A stretch of DNA of 59,081 bases from Alphaproteobacteria bacterium. Its GTDB lineage: Bacteria; Pseudomonadota; Alphaproteobacteria; Rhodobacterales; Rhodobacteraceae. A program made the position numbers and the translations under genes. Each line of letters starts with the position of its first letter. Position 1 is the stretch's first letter. The stretch spans positions 64,546 through 123,626 of the forward strand of contig JARFTV010000001.1 in the NCBI GenBank assembly GCA_029289325.1, in the 5' to 3' direction. Under the pieces are notes generated by a model. The model was not told the DNA's origin, searched no databases, and worked only from the letters and a program-made list of their open reading frames with translations. Of the stretch, positions 48,923-59,081 are shown piece by piece.

Positions 48923-49597
48923 TCAGTTCTCGCGTCGGGGCAGGGTCCATTCGCTGTGGCCGCAATTGGTGCAGACCTCGGCCGGGGCGGCTGCGATGGC
49001 TCCGCACTCCATGCAGCAGACCGGCCCGTCAGCGGGCGGGTCGTTCCCGTGAAGCTCGACGGGCGGAACGATCCGTAGTCCGGGCAAGGCGGTGTCGCGG
49101 CGGAAGACCGATAACCGGCCCGAAGGTTCAAGATAGGCCCGGTCCACCTGGCCCAGATTCCGGACTCCGGCCAGACGCAGCTTCTCCATCAGCTCACCGC
49201 TGCCATGGTTGCGCGCGGCCAGTCCGTCCTGGAGCATCACCCCGTCCCGCAGCACCTCGACCGGAATGCCATCCACCACCCGCTTGGCCTGTCGCCACCG
49301 GATCAGTACCAGATCGAGGGCCTTGTCGAGCAGGACGACGAGCAGGATTGCCAGCATGGCAGGCAGCAGCGGCATCTCGGGCTGGAACAGCGGATCGCCC
49401 ACGGCCGAGCCCAGCGCAATGACCAGCAGGAACTCCACCACCGACATCTGCGCGATCGTGCGACCACCCACCCAGCGCAGCAGGACCATGGTCCAGGCAA
49501 GGATGACGACCACCCGCACCACCACCTCGGCAAGGAACAGCGGCGGAAGACCGGCGAGCAGCAGGCGCCCAAGGTCGAACGGTGCGATCTGGTCCAT
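48923..49597 (-). CDS. DUF421 membrane protein with C-terminal zinc ribbon
   Basis: 224 aa. Membrane helices within the first 110 residues, DUF421/YetF-type signatures MSVVEFLLVIALGSAVGDP and VDGIPVEVLRDGVMLQDGL, then a terminal segment with CMEC and CTNC cysteine pairs (last 32 residues) that reads as a small zinc ribbon. YetF-like proteins are linked to stress and cell-envelope homeostasis; the biochemical role is unknown. ATG with GGGGGAA upstream, 18 bases beyond an EcfG-type promoter. Confidence 0.85.
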   Translation of the reverse strand: MDQIAPFDLGRLLLAGLPPLFLAEVVVRVVVILAWTMVLLRWVGGRTIAQMSVVEFLLVIALGSAVGDPLFQPEMPLLPAMLAILLVVLLDKALDLVLIRWRQAKRVVDGIPVEVLRDGVMLQDGLAARNHGSGELMEKLRLAGVRNLGQVDRAYLEPSGRLSVFRRDTALPGLRIVPPVELHGNDPPADGPVCCMECGAIAAAPAEVCTNCGHSEWTLPRREN

Positions 49598-49615
49598 GAA
49601 TTCCCCCGGACCGGA

Positions 49616-49641
49616 AACCCGATCCGCGACCCTGCGGTTCC
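49616..49641 (-). promoter_or_regulatory. EcfG-type promoter of the DUF421 gene
   Basis: Minus strand GGAAC-N17-GGTT, ending 18 bases before the DUF421 ATG. Fits the general-stress sigma consensus GGAAC-N16/17-(C/G)GTT. Confidence 0.75.
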
Positions 49642-49643
49642 AC

Positions 49644-49669
49644 GGAACTTTCTTGGGGGCCAAACGGTT
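49644..49669 (+). promoter_or_regulatory. EcfG-type promoter of the first DUF2934 gene
   Basis: GGAAC-N17-GGTT, -10 ending 30 bases before the DUF2934 ATG. Lies two bases from the divergent promoter above, a back-to-back arrangement. Confidence 0.75.
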
Positions 49670-49699
49670 GTTTCTTTAGCAAGCGGAAGGGTCACTGAC

Positions 49700-49897
49700 A
49701 TGGAACAGACCGAAATCGAACGTATCCAGCTTCGTGCCTACGAGATCTGGGAGGAAGCGGGCCGCCCGGCCGGGCGAGAGGCCGAACATTGGCAGCAGGC
49801 GCAGGCCGAGCTAGCCGCGAAGGACGCCTTTGGTCTCGACCCCGAAGAGGTCGCAGCCCTGCGTGAAGGCGCCGAGCCGATCAAGGATGAACCCTAG
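49700..49897 (+). CDS. DUF2934 small stress protein (1)
   Basis: 65 aa. The core RIQLRAYEIWEEAGRPAGREAEHWQQAQAEL is the DUF2934 signature, an acidic helical module frequent next to general stress genes. Function unknown. The open frame upstream is antisense to the DUF421 gene, so the ATG at 49700 behind the EcfG promoter is taken. A second DUF2934 protein occurs at 56034-56297. Confidence 0.85.
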   Translation: MEQTEIERIQLRAYEIWEEAGRPAGREAEHWQQAQAELAAKDAFGLDPEEVAALREGAEPIKDEP

Positions 49898-49901
49898 GCC
49901 G

Positions 49902-49926
49902 GGAACCCTGCCCTACACCGAGCGTT
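49902..49926 (+). promoter_or_regulatory. EcfG-type promoter of the small membrane protein gene
   Basis: GGAAC-N16-CGTT, a perfect match to the EcfG consensus, ending 28 bases before the ATG at 49955. Confidence 0.85.
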
Positions 49927-49954
49927 TCCTCAGGAAGCCTAGGAAAGGGAAGCC

Positions 49955-50161
49955 ATGTCTGCCCCCCGCACGAATATCGAAAAACAGAAGCGCCGCCACA
50001 TCGTCCCTCTGCTTGGCATGGCGGTGGTGGTGGTGTTCGCCGTCGGCCTGATCCTGTACTGGCAGTTCGAGGAAGCCGCTCAGGGCGATGCGCCCGGTGT
50101 AGAGGAACCGTCCGATCCGGGAGCCACGCCAAGACTGCCGTCCGACGCGCCACCGCCCTGA
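49955..50161 (+). CDS. Small single-pass membrane protein
   Basis: 68 aa: short basic cytosolic end (IEKQKRRH), one membrane helix (residues 16-37) and an acidic, proline-rich tail. No family recognised; the layout (short N-in helix plus Pro-rich outer tail) recurs in the 128 aa protein at 57509. RBS AGGAAAGGGAAG. Its EcfG-type promoter places it in the stress set. Confidence 0.75.
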   Translation: MSAPRTNIEKQKRRHIVPLLGMAVVVVFAVGLILYWQFEEAAQGDAPGVEEPSDPGATPRLPSDAPPP

Positions 50162-50219
50162 TCACCCGTCATTCGATCGTGTGCATGACCATCGTGCGCG
50201 ACTTCATCGGCCAAGAAAA

Positions 50220-50245
50220 ACGGCGCGGGCAAATGCCCGCGCCGT
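50220..50245 (-). terminator. Terminator of the Gln/Gly-rich gene
   Basis: Minus strand ACGGCGCGGGCA-TT-TGCCCGCGCCGT followed by TTTTC: 12-pair stem and T-run, just past the stop at 50252. Confidence 0.85.
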
Positions 50246-50251
50246 AGAAGT

Positions 50252-50494
50252 TCAGTCGCGGCGCTGGCCGGACTGGCCGCCTTGCTGGCCCTGACCGCCG
50301 CCTTGCTGATGACGGCCGGGCTGCTGGCCGGACTGCTGGCCCTGACCGCCTTGCTGGCCGCCCTGTTGACCCATACCGCCCTGCTGGCCCTGCTGATGCT
50401 GACCGCCCTGATTCTGGCCGCCTTGGCCACCCTGACGCTGGTCGGGGTTGATCTGCTGGCCTTGGTTCTTCTGCTGGTCGTTCTGGTTTGCCAT
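50252..50494 (-). CDS. Low-complexity Gln/Gly-rich protein
   Basis: 80 aa composed almost only of Gln, Gly, Asn, His and a few charged residues (GGQGGQNQGGQ-like runs). ATG 50494 is preceded by AGAGGAG. Such hydrophilic, glycine/glutamine repeats resemble hydrophilin/desiccation-type stress proteins, an inference from composition. Its own EcfG-type promoter and terminator argue that it is a real gene. A hydrophobic rightward frame on the other strand is an artefact of the repeats. Confidence 0.75.
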   Translation of the reverse strand: MANQNDQQKNQGQQINPDQRQGGQGGQNQGGQHQQGQQGGMGQQGGQQGGQGQQSGQQPGRHQQGGGQGQQGGQSGQRRD

Positions 50495-50539
50495 TTGGTC
50501 TTCTCCTCTGACATGCCGACTACCGGCCTGTAGGAAAGG

Positions 50540-50564
50540 AACCGGCAGCGCCCCCGTATGTTCC
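50540..50564 (-). promoter_or_regulatory. EcfG-type promoter of the Gln/Gly-rich gene
   Basis: Minus strand GGAAC-N16-GGTT, ending 45 bases before the ATG at 50494. The same bases on the plus strand give GGAAC-N16-TGTT, a weaker rightward match toward ku. Confidence 0.65.
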
Positions 50565-50585
50565 CCGGAATCCAGCCGCATCCGG

Positions 50586-50611
50586 GGAACCGCGTCGTGC
50601 TGGCGGACGTT
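50586..50611 (+). promoter_or_regulatory. EcfG-type promoter of ku (1)
   Basis: GGAAC-N17-CGTT, perfect consensus, ending 24 bases before the ku ATG at 50636. Confidence 0.85.
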
Positions 50612-50635
50612 TGCCCACTCGCAACGGAGGGCAGC

Positions 50636-51430
50636 ATGGCACCGCGCAGCTTCTGGAAGGGTTATCTGAAACTGTCGCTCGTGACCTGCCCGGTCGCGAT
50701 GACCCCGGCAACCAGCGACAGCGGAAGGTTGCGCTTTCACACGCTGAACCGGACCACGGGCAACCGGGTGGTCCAGCAATATGTCGATGCGGGGACCGGC
50801 AAACCCGTGGCCGAGGAGGACGAGGCCAAGGGTTATCCCCGGGGCGAGGATGATCATGTCCTGCTGGAGGACGACGAGATCGACGCCGTCGCCCTGGAAA
50901 GCACGCGCACGATTGATATCGAACGCTTCGTGCCCCAGGGCTCCATCGGCTGGATCTGGTATGACAAGCCGCATCTTCTGGTTCCCAACGACAAGGTGGG
51001 CGAAGAGGCCTTCGCCGTGATCCGCGAGGCGATGCGGGAAACCGGCATGGCGGGGATCGCGCGGCTGGTGCTTTATCGCCGCGAGCGGGCGGTCCTCCTG
51101 CGGCCTTGTGGCAAGGGGATCGTGCTCTGGACCCTCCGCTACGGCGACGAGGTGCGGCCCGAGGGTGAGTATTTCGCGCGGCTTGAGGACAAGAAGGTGG
51201 ACCGCGACCTGCTGAAGCTGGTCGAAAAGCTCATCGAGGCGCGCAAGGCGGACTGGACCCCGGAACTCGTGGCGGATCCGGTGCAGGAGCGGCTGGTCGA
51301 CATCATCGAGGCCAAACGGAAGGGCCGCAAACCCCCGAAGAAGCCCGCTGCGCCCAAGGATCGGCCGGACAATGTGGTCAACATCATGGATGCGCTGAAG
51401 CGCAGCATCGCGGCCGAGAAGCGGCGCTAG
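50636..51430 (+). CDS. ku: Ku DNA end-binding protein (1)
   Basis: 264 aa prokaryotic Ku, binds double-strand ends and recruits LigD for non-homologous end joining. PRSFWKGYLKLSLVTCPVAM opens the Ku core; HTLNRTTGNRVVQQY, VAEEDEAKGYPRGEDDHVLLEDDEID and TIDIERFV follow; the tail is Lys/Pro-rich. RBS GGAGGG upstream. It converges on ligD with a four-base overlap. A second Ku gene lies behind ligD, so the pair could form a heterodimer as proposed for rhizobial multi-Ku systems. Confidence 0.93.
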   Translation: MAPRSFWKGYLKLSLVTCPVAMTPATSDSGRLRFHTLNRTTGNRVVQQYVDAGTGKPVAEEDEAKGYPRGEDDHVLLEDDEIDAVALESTRTIDIERFVPQGSIGWIWYDKPHLLVPNDKVGEEAFAVIREAMRETGMAGIARLVLYRRERAVLLRPCGKGIVLWTLRYGDEVRPEGEYFARLEDKKVDRDLLKLVEKLIEARKADWTPELVADPVQERLVDIIEAKRKGRKPPKKPAAPKDRPDNVVNIMDALKRSIAAEKRR

Positions 51431-53865
51431 GCTTTTGGCAGGGGTGTGGCCGCGGCGTAGAAATCGCTCCACGGATCAGCGCCCGCGGACAGGCGCGCCG
51501 GCAGGTTCTGCACGGTGAAATGCGCGGGCCCGATGGCGGGGCCCAGTTCCTCCCAGGCGATGGGGGTGGAGACCGCCGCCCCCGGCCGGGCGCGCGTGGA
51601 CCATGGTGCCACGGCCGTCGCCCCGCGCTGGTTGCGCAGGTAGTCGACCAGGATCTTGCCGGTCCGCTTTGCCTTGGCGATGGTCGCGACATAGCGGTCG
51701 GGCTGATCCGCCGCCATCGCCTTGGCCAGAGCCTGACACCAGGCCTTCACCGCCGGCCATTCCGCCTTGGGCTTCAGCGGTGCGACCACATGCAACCCCT
51801 TCCCGCCGGAGGTCTTGAGGAACGCCGCCAGCCCCGCTGCCTCGACCCGTTCGCGCACCTCATGTGCTGCCTCGATCATCGCTTCCCAGCCCACGCCCTC
51901 GCCGGGGTCAAGGTCGATCACGATGCGATCGGGCCGCTCGATATCGGCCAGGGTAGAGCCCCAGGGATGGATCTCCAGCGCCGCCGACTGCACCAGACCC
52001 AGAAGCCCGTCGAGATCACCAACCGCGATCAGCCCCTCACCCGGATCGCCGGGGTCCTCGGGGGTAAGAATGTTGGGATTCATCCCCTTCCAGGCGTGTT
52101 TTTGGAAGAACTGCTGTCCTTCAATGCCATCCGGGCAGCGCAGCAGGGCCAGAGGGCGGCCGATGAGATGCGGCGCGATCAGGGGCCAGACCTCGGCATA
52201 ATGGTCGGCAAGGCCCGCCTTGGTAAGTCCCACGTCGGGCCAATAGACCCGGTCGGGATGCGTCAGCTTGACCCGCCGCTTGGGTTCCGGCGCAGGTTTG
52301 GCCTTGGGAGCGGCTTCGCGGACCACCTCCGTCGCGGGCTTGTCCTCGCGCAGACCCCGGAACGAGGCGTGACGCAGGTGGCCATCCGAAGTCCAGGCGC
52401 GGAACTCGACCTCGGCCACCAGTTCGGGCGTCACAAAACGCGCACCCCGCGCCTCCTCGGCTGTCAGGCGCTTGGCAAAGGGGGTTTCGCGGGTCTCCAT
52501 CGGCTGCAGGCGGGCGAACAGCTCCCGCGCCGTCTGGTTGCTGAACCCGGTTCCGACCCGGCCGACATGATGCAGCGCGCCGTCCTCGAACACCCCCAGC
52601 ACCAGCGAGCCGATGGCGCTGTCCGAGACGGAAGAGGGGACATAGCCTGCCACGACGAACTCCTGTCGGGCCGAGCATTTCGATTTCACCCAGCTCCGTC
52701 CCCGGCCTGATCGATAGGGGCTGTCGCGCAGCTTGGAAACCACGCCTTCCAGTCCCAGCCGACAGACATGGCGCAGGACGATTTCGCCGCCGTCATCGAA
52801 ATGCTCGCTGTAGCGCAGGGCAGCGGGCGCGCCGTTCAGCAGCGGTTCCAGCCGGGCCTTTCGCTCGGTCAGCGGCAGCTTGCGCAGGTCCTCGCCGTCA
52901 AGGTGCATCAGGTCGAAGGCATAGAACACCAGTCGGTCGCCGCGCCCTTCGGCAAGGTCAGCCTGCAATGCCGAGAAATCGGTCGCCCCCGATCCGGATT
53001 CCACCACCAACTCGCCGTCGACCAGAGCCTGATCGGCAAGCCCGCCCAGGACCTCCGCAATCGGGGCCAGCCTGTCGGTCCAATCCAGCCCACTGCGGGT
53101 GAGCAACCGCGCCTTGCCCCCGGCGATTCGGGCCTGCAACCGATAGCCATCGAACTTGATCTCGTGCAGCCAGCGGTCGTCCTTGGGGGTCGTGGCCACC
53201 AGCGAGGCCAGCATCGGAGGCACGAAATCCGGTAGCTCGACCTTGGACGCAGACTTGCGCGGCTTCGCCGCCTTGGCAGCCTTGGGGGTCTTCGGAGCAA
53301 CTCCCTTCGCCACCTCCGCCAGGTCGAGACCAGATTTCACCGACAGCGGCATCTCTTCCAGGATGTCAGGAGCGTCCTCGGAACGGGCGGCCTTATCCTC
53401 GCCCTTGATCAGCAGCCAGTTCTCGCGCTTTTCGCCGGGCTTGCCCTTGATCCGCACCAGATGCCAGCGGCCTTGCAGCTTTTCGCCCTGCAACTCGAAC
53501 TCCAGATGGCCTTTGGCATAACCCTTGTCAGGGTCGGCAACAGGGGACCACGTCCCCCGGTCCCAGACGATCACCGTCCCGCCGCCGTATTGGCCCTTGG
53601 GTATCGTGCCCTCGAAATCGCCATAGTCCAGCGGATGGTCCTCCACGTGCACCGCCAGCCGCTTTTCGCTCGGCACGAGACTTGGCCCGCGCGTGACGGC
53701 CCAGCTTTTCAGAACGCCATCCATCTCCAGCCGCAGGTCATAATGCAGCCGCCGGGCCGCATGTTTCTGGATGACAAAGCTGTTGCCCGCCGCCGCGCCG
53801 ACTTTCCCGGCCGGTTCAGGGGTGGTCTGGAAGTCGCGCTTTCGGCGGTAGGTCTCCAGTGCCAT
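51427..53865 (-). CDS. ligD: LigD multifunctional NHEJ ligase
   Basis: 812 aa with domains in the order phosphoesterase-ligase-polymerase. PE domain (about 1-150: RRLHYDLRLEMDGVLKSW, LDYGDFEGTIPKGQYGGG), ATP-dependent ligase domain (about 210-500) with adenylated Lys at residue 237 (EIKFDGYRLQ), and a C-terminal primase/polymerase domain (about 525-812: PDRVYWPDVGLTKAGLADHY, FFQKHAWKGMNPN, DRIVIDLDPGEG). Performs end processing, gap filling and sealing. Follows ku2 by one base (TGAGATG). Confidence 0.95.
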   Translation of the reverse strand: MALETYRRKRDFQTTPEPAGKVGAAAGNSFVIQKHAARRLHYDLRLEMDGVLKSWAVTRGPSLVPSEKRLAVHVEDHPLDYGDFEGTIPKGQYGGGTVIVWDRGTWSPVADPDKGYAKGHLEFELQGEKLQGRWHLVRIKGKPGEKRENWLLIKGEDKAARSEDAPDILEEMPLSVKSGLDLAEVAKGVAPKTPKAAKAAKPRKSASKVELPDFVPPMLASLVATTPKDDRWLHEIKFDGYRLQARIAGGKARLLTRSGLDWTDRLAPIAEVLGGLADQALVDGELVVESGSGATDFSALQADLAEGRGDRLVFYAFDLMHLDGEDLRKLPLTERKARLEPLLNGAPAALRYSEHFDDGGEIVLRHVCRLGLEGVVSKLRDSPYRSGRGRSWVKSKCSARQEFVVAGYVPSSVSDSAIGSLVLGVFEDGALHHVGRVGTGFSNQTARELFARLQPMETRETPFAKRLTAEEARGARFVTPELVAEVEFRAWTSDGHLRHASFRGLREDKPATEVVREAAPKAKPAPEPKRRVKLTHPDRVYWPDVGLTKAGLADHYAEVWPLIAPHLIGRPLALLRCPDGIEGQQFFQKHAWKGMNPNILTPEDPGDPGEGLIAVGDLDGLLGLVQSAALEIHPWGSTLADIERPDRIVIDLDPGEGVGWEAMIEAAHEVRERVEAAGLAAFLKTSGGKGLHVVAPLKPKAEWPAVKAWCQALAKAMAADQPDRYVATIAKAKRTGKILVDYLRNQRGATAVAPWSTRARPGAAVSTPIAWEELGPAIGPAHFTVQNLPARLSAGADPWSDFYAAATPLPKA

Positions 53866-53866
53866 C

Positions 53867-54697
53867 TCAGCCGGCCTTCCGGCGCGGGGCCAGCTTTTTC
53901 GGCGATGTCTTCCGCGACTTGGTCGTCGCCCCGGCGCTTTCGCGCAGCGCGGTAAGAAGGTCGACCACCTGCCCCTCGCGCCGGGCCTTCGGCTTGGCGA
54001 TCTTGCGGCCCCCCAGCTTGGCCTTCACCAGATCCGCCAGCGCCGCCTCGTACCGGTCGTCAAACTCGGTCGGGTCGAAGGTTCCCTGCTTGGTCTTGAT
54101 GATATGGGCGGCAAGCTCCAGCATCTCGCCCTGCAACTTCAGATCGGGGATCTCGTCGAAAACCTCGGCCGGGGATTTGACCTCATAGTCGAACTGCAAC
54201 GTGCTCGCCACGAGGCCCCGCCCCTGCGGGCGGATCAGCAGGGTCCGCACCCGGCGGAACAGAACCGTCTGCGCGAGGGCAGCCACGCTGCGCGACGTCA
54301 TTCCCTCGCGGATGAGGGCGAACACCTCGACCGAGGCCGGGTCGCTGGGGGCCAGGTAATAGGGTCGGTCGAAGAACAGGGTGTCCACGTCGTCGCAGTC
54401 GATGAACCGATCCAGCCGCAATGTCTTGTCGCTGTCGGGAACGGCAGCGGCCATGTCCTCATCCTCAAGAAGGATGTGATCGCCCTCGTCGACTTCATAG
54501 CCTTTCACCTCATCCTCCCGCGCGACAGGCTTGCCGGTCTCGCTGTCCACAAAGCGGCGCTGGACGCGGTTGCCGGTGGCGCGGTTGATCGTGTGGAAGG
54601 CGATCCGGTCCGAGGTCGAGGCCGCCGTGTACAGCGCCACGGCGCAGCCGACCTCGCCCACCACCATCCGTCCCTTCCAGTTCGCCCGCGGTGCCAT
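53867..54697 (-). CDS. ku: Ku DNA end-binding protein (2)
   Basis: 276 aa Ku paralogue. ANWKGRMVVGEVGCAVALYTAAS, HTINRATGNRVQRRFVDSETGKPV, DEVKGYEVDEGDHILLEDEDM and DRFIDCDDVD are homologous to Ku (1) but clearly diverged; basic C-terminus (TKSRKTSPKKLAPRRKA) probably binds DNA ends or LigD. Start at the ATG following GGGGGGCAGGA; an in-frame upstream ATG would precede the promoter. Cotranscribed with ligD. Confidence 0.93.
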   Translation of the reverse strand: MAPRANWKGRMVVGEVGCAVALYTAASTSDRIAFHTINRATGNRVQRRFVDSETGKPVAREDEVKGYEVDEGDHILLEDEDMAAAVPDSDKTLRLDRFIDCDDVDTLFFDRPYYLAPSDPASVEVFALIREGMTSRSVAALAQTVLFRRVRTLLIRPQGRGLVASTLQFDYEVKSPAEVFDEIPDLKLQGEMLELAAHIIKTKQGTFDPTEFDDRYEAALADLVKAKLGGRKIAKPKARREGQVVDLLTALRESAGATTKSRKTSPKKLAPRRKAG

Positions 54698-54721
54698 TCC
54701 TGCCCCCCTTTGCCGCGATTC

Positions 54722-54747
54722 AACCGTCAGAGGCACCCGGAGGTTCC
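54722..54747 (-). promoter_or_regulatory. EcfG-type promoter of ku2-ligD
   Basis: Minus strand GGAAC-N17-GGTT ending 24 bases before the ku2 ATG; puts the NHEJ operon under the general stress sigma factor. Confidence 0.8.
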
Positions 54748-54822
54748 AAAGCGGCAACTCGCCACAAAGGCGAAAGTGGTCGGCGGGGCTTCGCTTGTGG
54801 ACAGAAGTGATCAGGGGTGGGC

Positions 54823-54847
54823 GGAACTGGCCCCGGTCCGGCGCATT
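54823..54847 (+). promoter_or_regulatory. Imperfect EcfG-type promoter of the sigma factor gene
   Basis: GGAAC-N16-CATT, one mismatch in the -10 element, ending 54 bases before the sigma ATG. Would give autoregulation if functional. Confidence 0.5.
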
Positions 54848-54901
54848 GCCTTTTCAAAGCGCGAATGAATGCGCGGCGAAGACAACCAAGGGCAATCCTA
54901 T

Positions 54902-55375
54902 ATGTCGGATGACATCCTGAGTTACATCCCCGCGCTACGTCTGTTTGCGCGGTCCCTATGCGGTCGGTCTGGCGACCCCGACGATCTTGTGCAGGATACC
55001 CTCTTGCGCGCGATCGAGAAGGTGGACTCCTACACCCCAGGGACCAATATGCGGGCCTGGCTGTTCACCATCATGCGCAACCGCTTCTACAGCCAGTGCA
55101 TCAAGCTGGCACGCGAGCGTCCCGCGGCTGAAGACTGCGCCTCTTCCCAGCCGGTCAGTCAGCCGGTGCAGTACTGGCACATGCGGGGGAAGGAAGTAGA
55201 GGCCGCGCTACTGGACCTGCCGCAGCCCTACCGTGAGGCCATCGTCCTCGTGCTTGTGACCGGGGAAAGCTACTTGTCAGCGGCCGAGATCCTGGGCTGC
55301 GACATTGGCACGATCAAGAGCCGGATCAACCGGGGCCGCCGTCAACTCCGCGCCGCGCTGGGCGAAGAGGTCTGA
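54902..55375 (+). CDS. ecfG: EcfG-type ECF sigma factor
   Basis: 157 aa ECF sigma factor with region 2 (PALRLFARSLCGRSGDPDDLVQDTLLRAIEKVDSYTPGTNMRAWLFTIMRNRFYSQ) and region 4 (LLDLPQPYREAIVLVLVTGESYLSAAEILGCDIGTIKSRINRGRRQL). The NMRAWLFTIMRN and SRINRGRRQ blocks match the EcfG general-stress group of alphaproteobacteria. No PhyR or NepR gene is adjacent, so this may be a secondary EcfG copy. ATG chosen for an AGGG RBS and typical N-terminus; two ATGs 26-33 bases upstream are also in frame. Confidence 0.85.
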   Translation: MSDDILSYIPALRLFARSLCGRSGDPDDLVQDTLLRAIEKVDSYTPGTNMRAWLFTIMRNRFYSQCIKLARERPAAEDCASSQPVSQPVQYWHMRGKEVEAALLDLPQPYREAIVLVLVTGESYLSAAEILGCDIGTIKSRINRGRRQLRAALGEEV

Positions 55376-55385
55376 CTCCCGCCGG

Positions 55386-55410
55386 GGAACAATTCAAGGG
55401 CTGGCAGGTT
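55386..55410 (+). promoter_or_regulatory. EcfG-type promoter of the DUF892 gene
   Basis: GGAAC-N16-GGTT, ending 42 bases before the ATG at 55453; lies right after the sigma stop. Confidence 0.8.
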
Positions 55411-55452
55411 GGCCCCGCCGATCGACCAGAGGAATTCGCCAAGGAGGGCACC

Positions 55453-55950
55453 ATGAAGACGCAGAACCTCGAGAAGCTGTTTCACGAGACGCTCAAGGAC
55501 ATCTACTACGCCGAACGCAAGATCCTGCGCGCCCTGCCCAAGATGGCGCGCGGCGCCCAGTCACCTGAACTGAAGGCGGCCTTCGAAAAGCATCAGGAAG
55601 AGACCCAGCAGCAGGTCGAACGCCTCCAACAGGTGTTCGAGCTGATGGGCAAGCCCGCGCGTGGCAAGACCTGCCCGGCAATCGACGGCATCATCGAGGA
55701 AGGCGAAGAGGCGCTGGAGGCCTTTGCGGGCAGCCCGGCCCTTGACGCCAGCCTGATCGCCGCCGCCCAGGCGGTCGAGCACTATGAGATCGCACGCTAC
55801 GGCACTCTCGTCCGTTGGGCCGAGCTTCTCGATATGGGCGATGCCGTCCGCCTGCTGGACGCGACCCTGCAAGAGGAAGGCGCGACTGACAAGGCGCTGA
55901 CGGACCTCGCGGATGGTTCCGTCAATCAGGCTGCCCTCCAGGCGGCTTGA
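55453..55950 (+). CDS. DUF892/YciE ferritin-like stress protein
   Basis: 165 aa of four-helix, ferritin-like DUF892. FHETLKDIYYAERKILRALPKMA opens the first helix with the conserved YAE; EKHQEETQQQVERLQQVFELMGKPARGKTCPAI and EHYEIARYGTLVRWAELLDMGDAV carry the carboxylate/His residues for a diiron-type site. Family members (YciE/YciF) are general stress proteins. Start behind AAGGAGG. Downstream hairpin terminator. Confidence 0.92.
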   Translation: MKTQNLEKLFHETLKDIYYAERKILRALPKMARGAQSPELKAAFEKHQEETQQQVERLQQVFELMGKPARGKTCPAIDGIIEEGEEALEAFAGSPALDASLIAAAQAVEHYEIARYGTLVRWAELLDMGDAVRLLDATLQEEGATDKALTDLADGSVNQAALQAA

Positions 55951-55995
55951 CGGACTTCAGCCCGCCTTGCACTCCCCAGGGTCGGGCAGAAGGTA

Positions 55996-56028
55996 ACGGC
56001 CCCGCGCCCCCCCGCGCGGGGCCGTTTT
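55996..56028 (+). terminator. Terminator of the DUF892 gene
   Basis: ACGGCCCCGCGC-loop-GCGCGGGGCCGT followed by TTT, 12 perfect pairs, 45 bases after the stop. Confidence 0.85.
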
Positions 56029-56033
56029 CCGTC

Positions 56034-56297
56034 TCAGGCCCGACGCTTGCGGCGCGGCTCTCCCAAGCCGGGCGCTGCGGCCATCGGACCTGGCCCCATG
56101 CCGGCCAGACCGGCCCCGGTCTCCGGGTCCGGCTCTTCGCCTTCCGCCCCGGCCTGCCACAGCGGGCCGCGGTCCTGGCGCTCCAGCTCGGCCTGGGCCT
56201 GCAGCCAGTTCGCCTCGGCGCGACCCGAGGGTGCGCCCTCGTCCAGCCAGATCTCATAGGCCCGCTGGCGGATGCGGGCTTCGTCATTCTGCGTCAT
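56034..56297 (-). CDS. DUF2934 small stress protein (2)
   Basis: 87 aa. RIRQRAYEIWLDEGAPSGRAEANWLQAQAEL is the DUF2934 module, as in the first copy; it continues with a Gly/Pro/Met-rich tail and ends RRKRR. ATG 56297 has GGAGG upstream; the in-frame ATG four codons earlier does not. Divergent from the 57 aa/SDR operon and behind its own EcfG-type promoter. Confidence 0.82.
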   Translation of the reverse strand: MTQNDEARIRQRAYEIWLDEGAPSGRAEANWLQAQAELERQDRGPLWQAGAEGEEPDPETGAGLAGMGPGPMAAAPGLGEPRRKRRA

Positions 56298-56325
56298 CGG
56301 ATCCTCCATTGGTTCCAGCCGGGCC

Positions 56326-56350
56326 AACCAGCTGTGGGCGGGAATGTTCC
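56326..56350 (-). promoter_or_regulatory. EcfG-type promoter of DUF2934 (2)
   Basis: Minus strand GGAAC-N16-GGTT, ending 28 bases before the ATG at 56297. Confidence 0.8.
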
Positions 56351-56355
56351 GCATG

Positions 56356-56380
56356 GGAACAAAGCCAAAGGCGCGAGGTT
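56356..56380 (+). promoter_or_regulatory. EcfG-type promoter of the 57 aa gene and SDR
   Basis: GGAAC-N16-GGTT, ending 31 bases before the ATG at 56412; five bases from the divergent promoter, the second back-to-back pair of the island. Confidence 0.8.
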
Positions 56381-56411
56381 GGTTTCGGAACCGCTGAAGG
56401 AGCAACCCGCC

Positions 56412-56585
56412 ATGCACAGGACGGACCTACCGAAGAACGAAGAGCTGCGCCGCCCCGCGCCGGGGGTGATCGACCAGCGTCAGCAGCAGATCGATCCCGC
56501 CGGCCACCACCGCAAGGACCCGGATCATCGTCCCGACACCAACCGCAAGCAGCCCGGCGGCTCGCCGCAGGAGGAGCAGGAATGA
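56412..56585 (+). CDS. Small hydrophilic protein before the SDR
   Basis: 57 aa, very polar (His, Arg, Asp, Gln, Pro), with RQQQIDPAGHHRKDPDHRPDTNRKQPGG in the middle. No signal or membrane part; likely disordered. AAGGAG RBS. Stop overlaps the SDR start (ATGA), so it may set SDR translation or act in the same stress. No family recognised. Confidence 0.7.
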   Translation: MHRTDLPKNEELRRPAPGVIDQRQQQIDPAGHHRKDPDHRPDTNRKQPGGSPQEEQE

Positions 56586-57439
56586 CCGACTATCCGAAAC
56601 CCCCCTTCCCCGAACAGACGCAAGAGCTTCCCGGAAGCTTCATCCCCATGCAGCCTCGCCCCGACCATGGCGAAACCTCCTGGCGCGGGGCGGGGCGGTT
56701 GCAGGGCAAGGTGGCACTCATCACCGGGGCGGACAGCGGCATCGGCCGGGCCGTGGCGATCGCCTATGCCCGAGAGGGCGCCGACATCGCGCTGTGCTAC
56801 CTGTCCGAGACCGAGGACGCCGCCGACACCGCCCGCATGGTCGAGAACGCGGGCCAAAGCTGCCTGAAGCTGGAGGCGGACCTGTCGGACCCCGAAGCCT
56901 GCCGCCATGTGGTCGATCGAACCGTGCAGGAATGGGGCCGGATCGACATCCTGGTGAACAATGCCGCGCATCAGACGGTCTGCGAAAAGCTGGAGGATCT
57001 GACGCCAAAGGAATGGAACAAGACCTTTGCCGTAAACATCCATGCCATCTTCCACCTGACGCAGGCGGCCGTGCCGCACATGCGGGCGGGGAGTTCGATC
57101 ATCAACACCACCTCGATCAACGCGGACAAGCCGAACCCCTCGCTTCTGGCCTATGCGACCACGAAGGGCGCCATCCAGAATTTCACGGCGGGCCTGGCGC
57201 AGATGCTGGCCGAGCGTGGCATCCGGGTGAACTGTGTTGCCCCCGGCCCGGTCTGGACCCCGCTGATCCCGGCCTCGATGCCGGGCGACAAGGTCGCGCA
57301 TTTCGGGGAAAACTACCCGATGAAGCGCCCCGCCCAGCCGGTCGAACTCGCCTCGGCCTACGTCATGCTGGCCGAGCCGATGTCCAGCTATGTGTCCGGC
57401 GCCACCATCGCAGTGACCGGGGGAATGCCCCTGCTCTAG
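56582..57439 (+). CDS. SDR-family oxidoreductase (general stress type)
   Basis: 285 aa NAD(P)-dependent short-chain dehydrogenase with a Pro-rich N-terminal extension (PKPPFPEQTQELPGSFIPMQP) before the Rossmann motif ALITGADSGIGRAVAIAYAREGADIAL, NNAAHQTVCEKLEDLT, catalytic S...Y...K in STTSINADKPNPSLLAYATTKGAI-like stretch, and CVAPGPVWTPLIPASMP. The extension and the whole pattern match stress-induced SDRs (Bacillus YdaD/GSP39 group). Substrate unknown. Confidence 0.92.
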   Translation: MTDYPKPPFPEQTQELPGSFIPMQPRPDHGETSWRGAGRLQGKVALITGADSGIGRAVAIAYAREGADIALCYLSETEDAADTARMVENAGQSCLKLEADLSDPEACRHVVDRTVQEWGRIDILVNNAAHQTVCEKLEDLTPKEWNKTFAVNIHAIFHLTQAAVPHMRAGSSIINTTSINADKPNPSLLAYATTKGAIQNFTAGLAQMLAERGIRVNCVAPGPVWTPLIPASMPGDKVAHFGENYPMKRPAQPVELASAYVMLAEPMSSYVSGATIAVTGGMPLL

Positions 57440-57448
57440 GGGCGCGTC

Positions 57449-57473
57449 GGAACAATGCCGGGGCTGAGGGGTT
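57449..57473 (+). promoter_or_regulatory. EcfG-type promoter of the Thr/Pro-tail protein
   Basis: GGAAC-N16-GGTT, beginning ten bases after the SDR stop and ending 35 bases before the ATG at 57509. Confidence 0.8.
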
Positions 57474-57508
57474 AACCGACCGGAGCCCCGAAAGCGAAAG
57501 GACATTGC

Positions 57509-57895
57509 ATGTACAATCCTCCCCCTCCCGAAGGCCCCACCTCGGCCAATCCCCATGGGACCGCGCGGCCGATTGACGGGCGTCCGGTTGACGGCCGTCG
57601 GCCCGAAGGCATCAGAACCCGCCAGACAAGCATGTGGCTGGTCTTCGCCGTGCTTGCGGCGATCCTCGTCGTGATCCTGGCGGTCAGCTTCAACAGGAAC
57701 GACTCGCCCAGTCCCGTGACCACGACCACCACCCAGCCTGCAACGGGCACCGGCACGACCGATGGCACGGCACCCACCGCTCCGGCCATCGGCACCGACT
57801 CCGGCACCGCTGTGCCGGGCGAAACCGCTCCGGGCACGACCGCTCCGGGCGAAACGGCGCCGGGCACGACCACGCCGGGTACGACCACGCCCTGA
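57509..57895 (+). CDS. Membrane protein with Thr/Pro/Gly repeat tail
   Basis: 128 aa: Pro-rich N-terminus (NPPPPEGPTS), one membrane helix (residues about 42-62) and an outer tail of short repeats built from TAPG(E/T)T units (last 30 residues). Low-complexity tail in DNA as well as protein, suggesting slippage-based length variation. RBS AAAGGA. No family recognised; same layout as the 68 aa protein at 49955. Confidence 0.75.
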   Translation: MYNPPPPEGPTSANPHGTARPIDGRPVDGRRPEGIRTRQTSMWLVFAVLAAILVVILAVSFNRNDSPSPVTTTTTQPATGTGTTDGTAPTAPAIGTDSGTAVPGETAPGTTAPGETAPGTTTPGTTTP

Positions 57896-57914
57896 CCGGT
57901 GGGTCAGAACACGA

Positions 57915-57950
57915 GGAAGGGCCCGGCACCATCGGTAGCCGGGCCCTTCC
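57915..57950. terminator. Bidirectional terminator between convergent genes
   Basis: GGAAGGGCCCGGC-loop-GCCGGGCCCTTCC, 13 perfect pairs with a ten-base loop, between the tail-to-tail genes ending at 57895 and 57967. Confidence 0.85.
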
Positions 57951-57966
57951 CCCATCCTTATCCGGA

Positions 57967-58473
57967 CTAGCGCCCTGCGGGCAGATCCAGTTCGGTCCTG
58001 GCCAGGAACTGGCGGGTGATCTCGGACGAATGGTTCGCCAGCCAGTCGGCCATTGCCTCTTCCTCGGACAGGCAGCGGCGAAAAACCTCGACCGCCTGAC
58101 TGTCGCCAAGCTGTCCCGCCGCGGCGATCAGGATGCGGTAGGAAGCGATCTCCATATGTTCGAAGGTGTAGCTGGCCAGCGTGCCCTTCACGACCTCATC
58201 CGAGGCAAAGACCCCGCTCATCGCCTGACCGACCGCCGCCAACTTGCCCATGGCATCCTTGACCATCGAGGAAGATTCGCCGTAGCCGTCAAGCAGACGA
58301 CGCAGCTCGGCCTCCTGGCCCTCGGTCTCGGCGATATGCGTCTGGATCCGGTCCCGCAGCTCGGGATAGTGCTCAAGCCGGTTCACCATCCCCTGCATCA
58401 TGGTCAGAGCCTGTTCTTCCATCGCGTGGGCGTCGCGTAGCCAGCCCAGGTAACTCTTGCGCATCTGTTCCAT
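57967..58473 (-). CDS. Ferritin-like DUF892-type stress protein (2)
   Basis: 168 aa, all-helical: YLGWLRDAHAMEEQALTMMQGMVNRLEHYP, ETEGQEAELRRLLDGYGES, and SYTFEHMEIASYRILIAAAGQLGDSQAVEVFRRCLSEEEAMADWL carry the Glu/His set of the YciF/DUF892 ferritin-like fold. Likely a diiron stress protein paralogous in role, not closely in sequence, to the one at 55453. ATG preceded by AAGGATG. No EcfG box seen immediately upstream; it follows a terminator. Confidence 0.82.
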   Translation of the reverse strand: MEQMRKSYLGWLRDAHAMEEQALTMMQGMVNRLEHYPELRDRIQTHIAETEGQEAELRRLLDGYGESSSMVKDAMGKLAAVGQAMSGVFASDEVVKGTLASYTFEHMEIASYRILIAAAGQLGDSQAVEVFRRCLSEEEAMADWLANHSSEITRQFLARTELDLPAGR

Positions 58474-58542: not shown

Positions 58543-59081
58543 CTAGCGGCGCGACGAGCGCGAGCCACCGCGACGGTCATCGTCGTCGCGGTTCTCCCAC
58601 CCACGGCGGGCGGCTTCGGCATGGCCACGGCTGTCGCCGAACCACCCGCCCTGGCCACGCTCGCGGTCCGAGTCGCCACCCCGACCGCCTCCGCGCGAGG
58701 ACCGGCCATCGTCGTCACTGACGAAACGGCCGTATTCGTCCCGCTCGCGGCCATCAGAGCCACGACCCCGACCGCGGGACGACGAGGACCGACGGTCATC
58801 GTCATCGCTCATGAACCGACCGTATTCATCACGCTCCCGGTCGTCCGAACCACGGCCACGGCCGCGGGACGAGGAGGACCGACGGTCATCGTCATCGCTC
58901 ATGAACCGGCCGTATTCATCGCGCTCCCGGTCGTCCGAGCCACGACCCCGACCGCGCGACGAGGAAGACCGACGGTCGTCGTCATCGCTCATGAACCGGC
59001 CGTATTCATCGCGCTCCCGGTCGTCCGAACCACGACCACGGCCGCGCGACGAGGAAGACCGACGGTCGTCGTCATCGCTCA
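58543..59081 (-). CDS. Asp/Arg/Ser-rich tandem-repeat protein (5' end outside window)
   Basis: At least 178 residues of an open frame that runs off the window edge. Perfect to near-perfect 30-residue repeats of the form M-S-D4-R2-S4-(RG)n...DEYGRF, then a degenerate unit and a terminal block with GWFGDSRGHAEAARRGWENR, a motif seen in stress-induced glycine/arginine-rich proteins. Highly charged, likely disordered. No catalytic domain. Ends in a strong terminator. Its promoter lies outside the window. Confidence 0.75.
   Translation of the reverse strand, partial: SDDDDRRSSSSRGRGRGSDDRERDEYGRFMSDDDDRRSSSSRGRGRGSDDRERDEYGRFMSDDDDRRSSSSRGRGRGSDDRERDEYGRFMSDDDDRRSSSSRGRGRGSDGRERDEYGRFVSDDDGRSSRGGGRGGDSDRERGQGGWFGDSRGHAEAARRGWENRDDDDRRGGSRSSRR
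58723..59081 (-). repeat. 90-bp tandem repeats (four copies seen)
   Basis: Units 58993-(59082), 58903-58992, 58813-58902 and 58723-58812, each 90 bases and in frame (30 codons), nearly identical in DNA as well as protein, so recently duplicated. The array continues past the window edge. Confidence 0.9.

Follow-up and report, generated by a model that had tools for sequence, protein, structure and literature searches.

A predicted accessory EcfG sigma factor within an island of EcfG-type promoters of a Tabrizicola-like bacterium (Rhodobacteraceae)

Results

The stretch analysed here (the window) comprises 59,081 bases of a Rhodobacteraceae genome (assembly GCA_029289325.1, contig JARFTV010000001.1; C77:64546-123626 of genome G000). 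Its right-hand part carries the gene of an EcfG-type sigma factor, which we call EcfG2, among genes for two Ku proteins and DNA ligase D, ferritin-like DUF892 proteins, an SDR oxidoreductase and several small or membrane proteins (Table 1). The genus name Tabrizicola was adopted from the named relatives of EcfG2, and the host is a Tabrizicola-like member of the family. A sequence-only reading of the window had proposed a stress regulon at 48923-58473, with eleven promoter-like boxes of the form GGAAC-N16/17-(C/G)GTT ending 18-54 nucleotides (nt) before start codons. We found ten exact matches in the window, all within 49616-57473, and an eleventh with one mismatch (CATT) before the sigma gene. 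Each exact box pointed at a gene and ended 18-45 nt before its start codon, while the sigma-gene box ended 54 nt before; every gene said to carry a box, on either strand, had it at promoter distance. The attribution to the alphaproteobacterial EcfG consensus fits the forms given in the parts of the literature drawn on here: GGAAC-N16-CGTT in Rhizobium etli (PMC3892343), GAAC-N16,17-C/GGTT (PMC4814048) and the natural -10 forms CGTT, TGTT, CATT and GGTT among the general stress response (GSR) boxes of Sphingopyxis (PMC7083833).

In a genome rich in G+C, GGAAC and SGTT are frequent words, and over the whole genome (4,170,319 bases, 120 contigs) the exact pattern occurred 176 times against 125 for the reversed pattern, so that most scattered matches can be put down to chance. 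As the origin of the clustered boxes, chance or base composition was nevertheless rejected, its probability being practically negligible. None of 100 dinucleotide shuffles of the window reached ten boxes (mean 1.25, maximum 5), and window positions 1-48900 contained no exact box and two reversed ones. The 8-kb window part held 10 boxes where 0.32 were expected from the remaining genome (P 2e-12). When 173 of the 176 matches were placed and ranked by density in this consensus-pattern scan, the densest 20.4 kb of the genome was the island itself, with 18 exact boxes against 0.78 expected from the remainder (P 8e-19), an overlapping pair on opposite strands (134127+ and 134129-) being included. 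Roughly one third of the excess over the whole genome came from the island. An exact box stood 8-100 nt before the start of 15/28 island genes, 8/29 genes of the region of the canonical sigma factor EcfG1 (see below) and 0/148 other genes of the contig, so random genes did not share the box density of the island; the gene calls were made in this analysis, and without hand correction the island figure is 12/27 and the other two are unchanged. No reversed pattern was in promoter position before genes of the same contig.

The block first delimited is a real core, but the island has about double that length, extending from about C77:113,468 to 134,700 (window-equivalent 48923 to about 70,150), some 11 kb past the window end. 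This further part encodes a NepR-like protein of 55 amino acids (aa), a PAS-HWE kinase whose gene is boxed, a receiver-sigma2 protein, an alpha-amylase-family protein that we read as the trehalose-forming TreZ, and a predicted protein that is presumably a 3-methyladenine glycosylase. It also holds a large catalase gene with a box, DUF3008, PRC-barrel and other small genes, some of them boxed, and an uncalled Pro-rich open reading frame (ORF) of 71 codons preceded by box 134484+. The left flank consists of a DUF2853 gene and another that we take to be ahcY; the right flank, read by eye, has EVE-domain, gpsA and tsaD genes.

The gene order of the island was kept whole in one relative (G149); a second (G155) shared it but lacked the PRC and 82-aa genes of that end, and many island genes were present in other orders in four more (G168, G171, G173 and G153). 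Among 67 orthologue upstream regions (14 boxed genes, seven relatives; the DUF2934 genes of three relatives were counted under both DUF2934 queries), 41 had an exact box, 17 a box with one mismatch and nine none, and the reversed pattern gave no exact and five one-mismatch matches. Orthologues of six genes unboxed here had a box in 3/28 upstream regions. The 16-17 nt spacers had diverged; what is retained of the motif is its ends. By position, conservation and local concentration, the island boxes are predicted EcfG-type promoters. A 94-aa protein at C77:131450-131734 (-) had no exact box of its own; its homologues in five of six relatives had exact boxes 10-26 nt before the inferred start.

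The island sigma matched Sigma70_r2 (E 4e-15) and Sigma70_r4_2 (E 8e-12), and its best PDB match was 5uxx_A, which we take to be the Bartonella EcfG-NepR complex; by these matches it is a member of the EcfG family. The canonical phyR, nepR and ecfG1 genes lie at C77:7814-9528, about 105 kb from the island sigma on the same contig, and their locus includes a HisKA_2 kinase. In the tree, EcfG1 of the genus was separated from the island-type sigmas with branch support of 100/100; many genus genes entered twice from two queries, which inflates the row counts, and canonical EcfG1 from other genera were absent. L139 and R. etli EcfG2 had modestly supported positions closest to the EcfG1 side. With phyR-nepR-ecfG1 elsewhere on the contig and the tree split, the idea that the island sigma is the canonical EcfG was rejected, and EcfG2 is, by its sequence, an accessory EcfG paralogue outside the canonical locus. 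The proposal of a stress regulon gathered with its sigma factor thus stands as to promoter position, conservation and density, but the sigma is the accessory paralogue. The EcfG1 region (C77:1-25,100) had 8 exact boxes against 0.9 expected. Viewed over C77:1-26000 (L013), ~88-113 kb left of the island, these form a looser cluster in which CGTT makes up 6/8.

For the best 80 named relatives of the island sigma among the matches listed, we examined the gene together with as much as 10 kb of each flank (1.52 Mb in total); the loci came from Tabrizicola, Paracoccus, Devosia, Pleomorphomonas, Rhizobium, Mesorhizobium and other genera. These loci contained 419 boxes against 50 reversed, an 8-fold difference. 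At least five boxes occurred in 42/80 loci (reversed, 0/80) and none in two; the loci are mutually related and a few are perhaps canonical, so the counts are not independent events. Canonical-type NepR matches lay near the sigma in two of the 80 (L117 and L120), and hence a few of the set may fall outside EcfG2 in the strict sense. Box density, taken over the 68 full-length loci, was highest nearest the sigma gene and fell with distance, with 130, 69, 69, 52 and 53 boxes per successive 2-kb step (reversed 8, 12, 5, 11 and 14). The clustering, which had been called unusual, is so within its genome, yet it recurs around the relatives of the sigma. Homologues of Ku1, LigD and Ku2 were found together in 14 of the best 80 loci, including those of Rhizobium and Neorhizobium. 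Relatives of the sigma were also found on 599 plasmid records (E<=1e-15), of which 14 were 60-80% identical, all from Paracoccus, and the rest below 60%. The Paracoccus marcusii plasmid locus had 8 boxes and no reversed match in 28 kb. This plasmid stress island (L169) carries Mn-catalase, DUF892, SDR, treS and glgB genes alongside a receiver-sigma2 gene. Pleomorphomonas and Devosia sigmas (L084 and L096) stood among Paracoccaceae sequences in the tree, a placement that suggests transfer between orders.

The single (C/G)GTT class of the first reading covers the boxes, but in the genus it mixes two sub-classes, one prevailing in the EcfG1 region and the other in the EcfG2 island. The ratio of CGTT to GGTT was 32:9 in the EcfG1 regions of this genome and four genus relatives and 25:74 in the EcfG2 islands of this genome and six relatives (P 1e-8). 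The base after GGAAC was C in 31/41 EcfG1-region boxes and A in 56/99 EcfG2-island boxes, and most island promoters were G-type (GGTT), often beginning GGAACA(A/T). Loci L084-L104 leaned like the islands (GGTT 75, CGTT 23). The pattern GGAACAW-N14/15-GGTT occurred 24 times in the genome (reversed, 0), with nine matches in the island, one near EcfG1 and 14 elsewhere; it was derived from the island, so the 15 outside matches alone are independent. When eight of the outside matches were inspected by eye, five were plausible promoters and L214, L216 and L218 looked intragenic. GGAACC-N15/16-CGTT occurred 34 times against 19 reversed.

The CATT of the sigma-gene box was kept in 5/6 genus relatives, and the view that this one-mismatch box is spurious was rejected on that conservation. 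An EcfG-type box preceded the sigma gene in 66/79 loci (one of the best 80 was without upstream sequence), with CATT in 33, CGTT in 30, GGTT in 2 and TGTT in 2; boxes elsewhere in those loci were GGTT 238, CGTT 128, TGTT 112 and CATT 21. The predicted promoter of ecfG2 is C-type (CATT). In Sphingopyxis, whose EcfG1 and EcfG2 do not map onto the names used here, the CATT promoter is reported to discriminate most between the two EcfGs (38.5-fold; PMC7083833). In Sinorhizobium meliloti, rpoE5 is stated to be a direct target of RpoE2, and its printed promoter reads, in our view, as GGAAC-N16-CATT (PMC6180224).

Of the 55-aa protein encoded beyond the window end, two of six homologues gave weak matches to Pfam NepR, below its cut-off (E 0.0017 and 0.013), and the family profile aligned with canonical NepR by hhalign (prob 92, E 6e-7); the consensus of the homologues was IEkEPVPDRLleLArELQkAL. 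A sequence search of the 55-aa protein against the PDB gave no relevant match, and a NepR motif search by regular expression gave none. The profile matched 13 of 149 family genomes. In 9 of the 12 besides this genome, the match shared a contig with an EcfG-type gene and lay <=15 kb from it; four of these nine were in canonical nepR position. In the best 80 loci, 55 were matched in a first round (8 of them used in building the profile) and 60 in a second. The gene was within 1 kb of the sigma in 40 of these 60, most commonly downstream on the opposite strand (22/40), and reversed ORFs gave no matches. The 55-aa protein is a putative divergent NepR-like anti-sigma factor that may contact EcfG2.

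The receiver-sigma2 protein combines an N-terminal receiver, closest among solved structures to SdrG (5ieb, residues 7-115, E 3e-11), with a C-terminal sigma2-like domain at residues 125-176, the reverse of the order in PhyR. No sigma4 match was found in it, and in PhyR a sigma2-sigma4-like domain precedes the receiver. Matches to PhyR_sigma2 were all below the cut-off (E 3e-5 to 0.003 in 4/4 homologues, 9e-4 in the protein itself), neither the protein nor its homologues matched Sigma70_r2, and hhalign related the sigma2-like domain to EcfG region 2 (prob 96.8, E 3e-10). A tblastn search of the best 80 loci gave full-length homologues in nine, and the putative phospho-acceptor Asp was invariant in the nine-sequence alignment. 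A profile of these nine gave one further match, on the P. marcusii plasmid; this full-length protein (L169 19901-20464, NZ_CP157013.1) is annotated as hypothetical. Among the 149 family genomes the full-length protein occurred in three, this one included, and in G018 its gene was 26 nt from the closer of two listed EcfG-type genes. In L079 and L080 it was divergent from the NepR-like gene, as phyR is from nepR. We recognised no description of this architecture in a partial search of the literature, which does not prove its absence.

Table 1 Features of the island and of the canonical EcfG1 locus. Positions are those of the window unless prefixed C77; for boxes, nt is the distance from box end to start codon.
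Feature	Position	Strand	Details
DUF421 (YetF C-terminal domain) membrane protein	48923..49597	-	PF04239 E 9e-12; ATG start inside longer TTG ORF
EcfG-type box GGTT, N17, before DUF421/YetF gene	49616..49641	-	18 nt; exact in 2/4 relatives
EcfG-type box GGTT, N17, before DUF2934 a	49644..49669	+	30 nt; relatives 1/6 exact, 5 one mismatch
DUF2934 protein a, 65 aa	49700..49897	+	PF11154 E 3e-12
EcfG-type box CGTT, N16, before small membrane protein	49902..49926	+	28 nt; exact in 6/6 relatives
Small membrane protein, 68 aa	49955..50161	+	no Pfam family matched
Gln/Gly-rich protein, 80 aa	50252..50494	-	no Pfam family matched
EcfG-type box GGTT, N16, before Gln/Gly-rich gene	50540..50564	-	45 nt
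EcfG-type box CGTT, N17, before ku1	50586..50611	+	24 nt; exact in 6/6 relatives
ku1, end-joining protein Ku	50636..51430	+	TIGR02772 E 2e-84
ligD, DNA ligase D	51427..53865	-	TIGR02776 E 2e-201
ku2, end-joining protein Ku	53867..54697	-	TIGR02772 E 4e-76
EcfG-type box GGTT, N17, before ku2-ligD	54722..54747	-	24 nt; relatives 5/6 exact, sixth TGTT
Variant EcfG-type box GGAAC-N16-CATT before sigma gene	54823..54847	+	54 nt
EcfG2, predicted accessory EcfG/ECF15-type sigma factor, 157 aa	54902..55375	+	5uxx_A E 2e-33
EcfG-type box GGTT, N16, before DUF892 a	55386..55410	+	42 nt; exact in 7/7 relatives
Ferritin-like DUF892 protein a	55453..55950	+	PF05974 E 7e-62
DUF2934 protein b	56034..56297	-	PF11154 E 4e-12
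EcfG-type box GGTT, N16, before DUF2934 b	56326..56350	-	28 nt; relatives 1/5 exact, 4 one mismatch
EcfG-type box GGTT, N16, before 57 aa-SDR operon	56356..56380	+	31 nt; relatives 2/6 exact, 3 none
57-aa protein overlapping SDR start	56412..56585	+	ORF call
SDR oxidoreductase	56582..57439	+	NF005214 E 2e-116 (below its cut-off); PF13561
EcfG-type box GGTT, N16, before Thr/Pro-tail gene	57449..57473	+	35 nt; exact in 2/2 relatives
Membrane protein with Thr/Pro/Gly/Glu repeat tail, 128 aa	57509..57895	+	ORF call
Ferritin-like DUF892 protein b	57967..58473	-	PF05974 E 8e-48; no box found upstream
90-bp tandem-repeat protein (RERDEYGRFMSDDDDRR), C-terminal part	58543..59081	-	continues past window end
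55-aa NepR-like protein	C77:125014-125181		beyond window end
PAS-HWE kinase, boxed	C77:125262-126674		beyond window end
Receiver-sigma2 protein, 189 aa	C77:130896-131465		beyond window end
PhyR (sigma-like domain + receiver)	C77:7814-8623
Canonical NepR	C77:8786-8962		exact box upstream
EcfG1	C77:8959-9528

Discussion

The comparative data lead us to lean, if only slightly, towards a general-stress island organized around EcfG2, in which EcfG1 acts on ecfG2 and EcfG2 on the GGTT promoters around it. Under stress, PhyR would free EcfG1 from NepR, and EcfG1 would read CGTT promoters together with the ecfG2 promoter. EcfG2 would be kept in check by the divergent NepR-like protein of the island and, once active, would read the surrounding GGTT promoters; its output would comprise double-strand-break repair by Ku and LigD, ferritin-like DUF892 proteins, catalase, trehalose synthesis and envelope proteins. 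We infer this order, from EcfG1 to ecfG2 to the island, for the genus. With sigma, anti-sigma and targets together the block could be transferred in one piece, in keeping with the plasmid location of the close Paracoccus relatives.

A number of results weigh against this circuit. An exact box was missing from 13/28 island genes, four island boxes were CGTT, and box 132420- had no clear gene in front of it. In this genome alone the class split was weak (6:2 vs 4:14, P 0.026), and since the classes were taken from the loci compared and these are related, the P values for the split overstate independence. The boxes of L105-L157, mostly Rhizobiales, were unsplit (GGTT 141, CGTT 132), so the division may hold for Rhodobacterales-type islands only. 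The 55-aa protein of this genome had no Pfam NepR match at E<=10, and its gene lies 5 kb from ecfG2, directly before the HWE kinase. As reported in the portion of the R. etli study drawn on here, EcfG1 failed to drive the ecfG2 promoter in Escherichia coli, the dependence of ecfG2 on ecfG1 was partial, and the motif was present in 1/19 ecfG2-dependent units (PMC3892343); overexpression of S. meliloti RpoE5 is described as giving one putative target (PMC6180224). EcfG1, moreover, could read every box.

That last point can be carried further: EcfG1 would read all boxes, with EcfG2 a minor amplifier of the same specificity and the island an ordinary cluster of GSR targets. One consensus does cover every box, GGTT boxes occur in EcfG1 regions too, and L105-L157 lack a class bias. 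Caulobacter crescentus sigU and S. meliloti rpoE5 are described as minor paralogues under the main sigma (PMC8103513, PMC6180224), and both Sphingopyxis EcfGs are reported to transcribe all five promoters tested (PMC7083833). We consider this explanation somewhat doubtful, as the -10 classes of the genus divide by locus, across 79 loci the sigma gene and its neighbours have promoters of different class, and box density drops away from the sigma gene. Selection for co-transfer, not regulation, might instead explain the clustering, with the sigma a passenger in a horizontally moving stress cassette. The Paracoccus plasmid records, the Pleomorphomonas and Devosia sequences among those of Paracoccaceae, and the retention of gene content with reshuffled order speak for such movement; the unchanged order of genes in G149 and G155 and the location of the G153 copy on a 4.19-Mb contig speak against it. 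The boxes were kept while their spacers diverged, which argues that regulation was also selected. As the chief cause, movement appears improbable, and it is compatible with a circuit centred on EcfG2.

A bolder extension of the EcfG2 circuit is that the island forms a complete second partner switch, made up of EcfG2, the NepR-like anti-sigma, the HWE kinase and an inverted PhyR. The phosphorylated inverted PhyR would free EcfG2, and the circuit would be separable from the canonical one and read its own GGTT class; we put this forward as a tentative possibility. Were the receiver-sigma2 protein able to replace PhyR, partner switching would be more modular than thought.

We regard the island as one variant of the general stress response already known. 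It shares with the canonical GSR locus (phyR/nepR-ecfG, ECF15) an EcfG-type sigma, GGAAC-N16/17-NGTT promoters, an HWE kinase and a NepR-like small protein, but its sigma is a separate paralogue among likely targets, its NepR-like protein is missed by the Pfam NepR model, and it has no canonical PhyR. S. meliloti RpoE5 (pSymB) is likewise an accessory ECF15 sigma, encoded on a secondary replicon, with a GGAAC-N16-CATT promoter and, downstream on the other strand, an unannotated RsiA-like (NepR-type) ORF, a layout that was also the commonest here; it differs in its one putative target, and the part of the paper concerned mentions no island (PMC6180224). The plasmid-borne accessory EcfG2 of R. 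etli (PF00052, p42f) also adjoins a ferritin-like gene (PMC3892343), but it is 44% identical and its place in the tree is unsure. The printed account, in the part drawn on, gives no motif for its regulon (PMC3892343). In R. etli CFN42 p42f 40000-75000 (L170), we found 10 boxes and 0 reversed in the 35 kb around ecfG2 (PF00052), and a profile search of these 35 kb found no NepR-like gene. Rubellimicrobium thermophilum resembles the present genome in having two ecfG loci (GSR and GSR') and HWE kinases, with one NepR reported for both, and differs in that both of its PhyR proteins have typical sigma-like and receiver folds (PMC12148442). The single-domain (FATGUY) response regulators SdrG and MrrA are a further comparison: the receiver of the island protein is closest to SdrG, and the protein adds a C-terminal sigma2-like domain.

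Several EcfG sigmas are reported for about half of completely sequenced alphaproteobacterial genomes (PMC3892343), and a review, in the section drawn on, finds no general consensus on the specific functions of the paralogues (PMC8103513). The dense EcfG-promoter neighbourhoods of EcfG2-type genes make the role of the paralogue testable; the -10 class split of the genus and the C-type ecfG2 promoter yield a model for such tests, and the small, easily overlooked NepR-like gene near many EcfG2-type genes is part of it. The presence of Ku and LigD genes beside the sigma in 14 of the best 80 loci ties stress signalling to double-strand-break repair.

Apart from the promoters and regulators, the protein truncated by the window end contains 90-bp tandem repeats (RERDEYGRFMSDDDDRRSSSSRGRGRGSDD; window 58703-59081, L001 10089-11842), which enter a masked N run just past the window end. 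A TGTT-form box lies upstream of its gene at window-equivalent 60324-60349.

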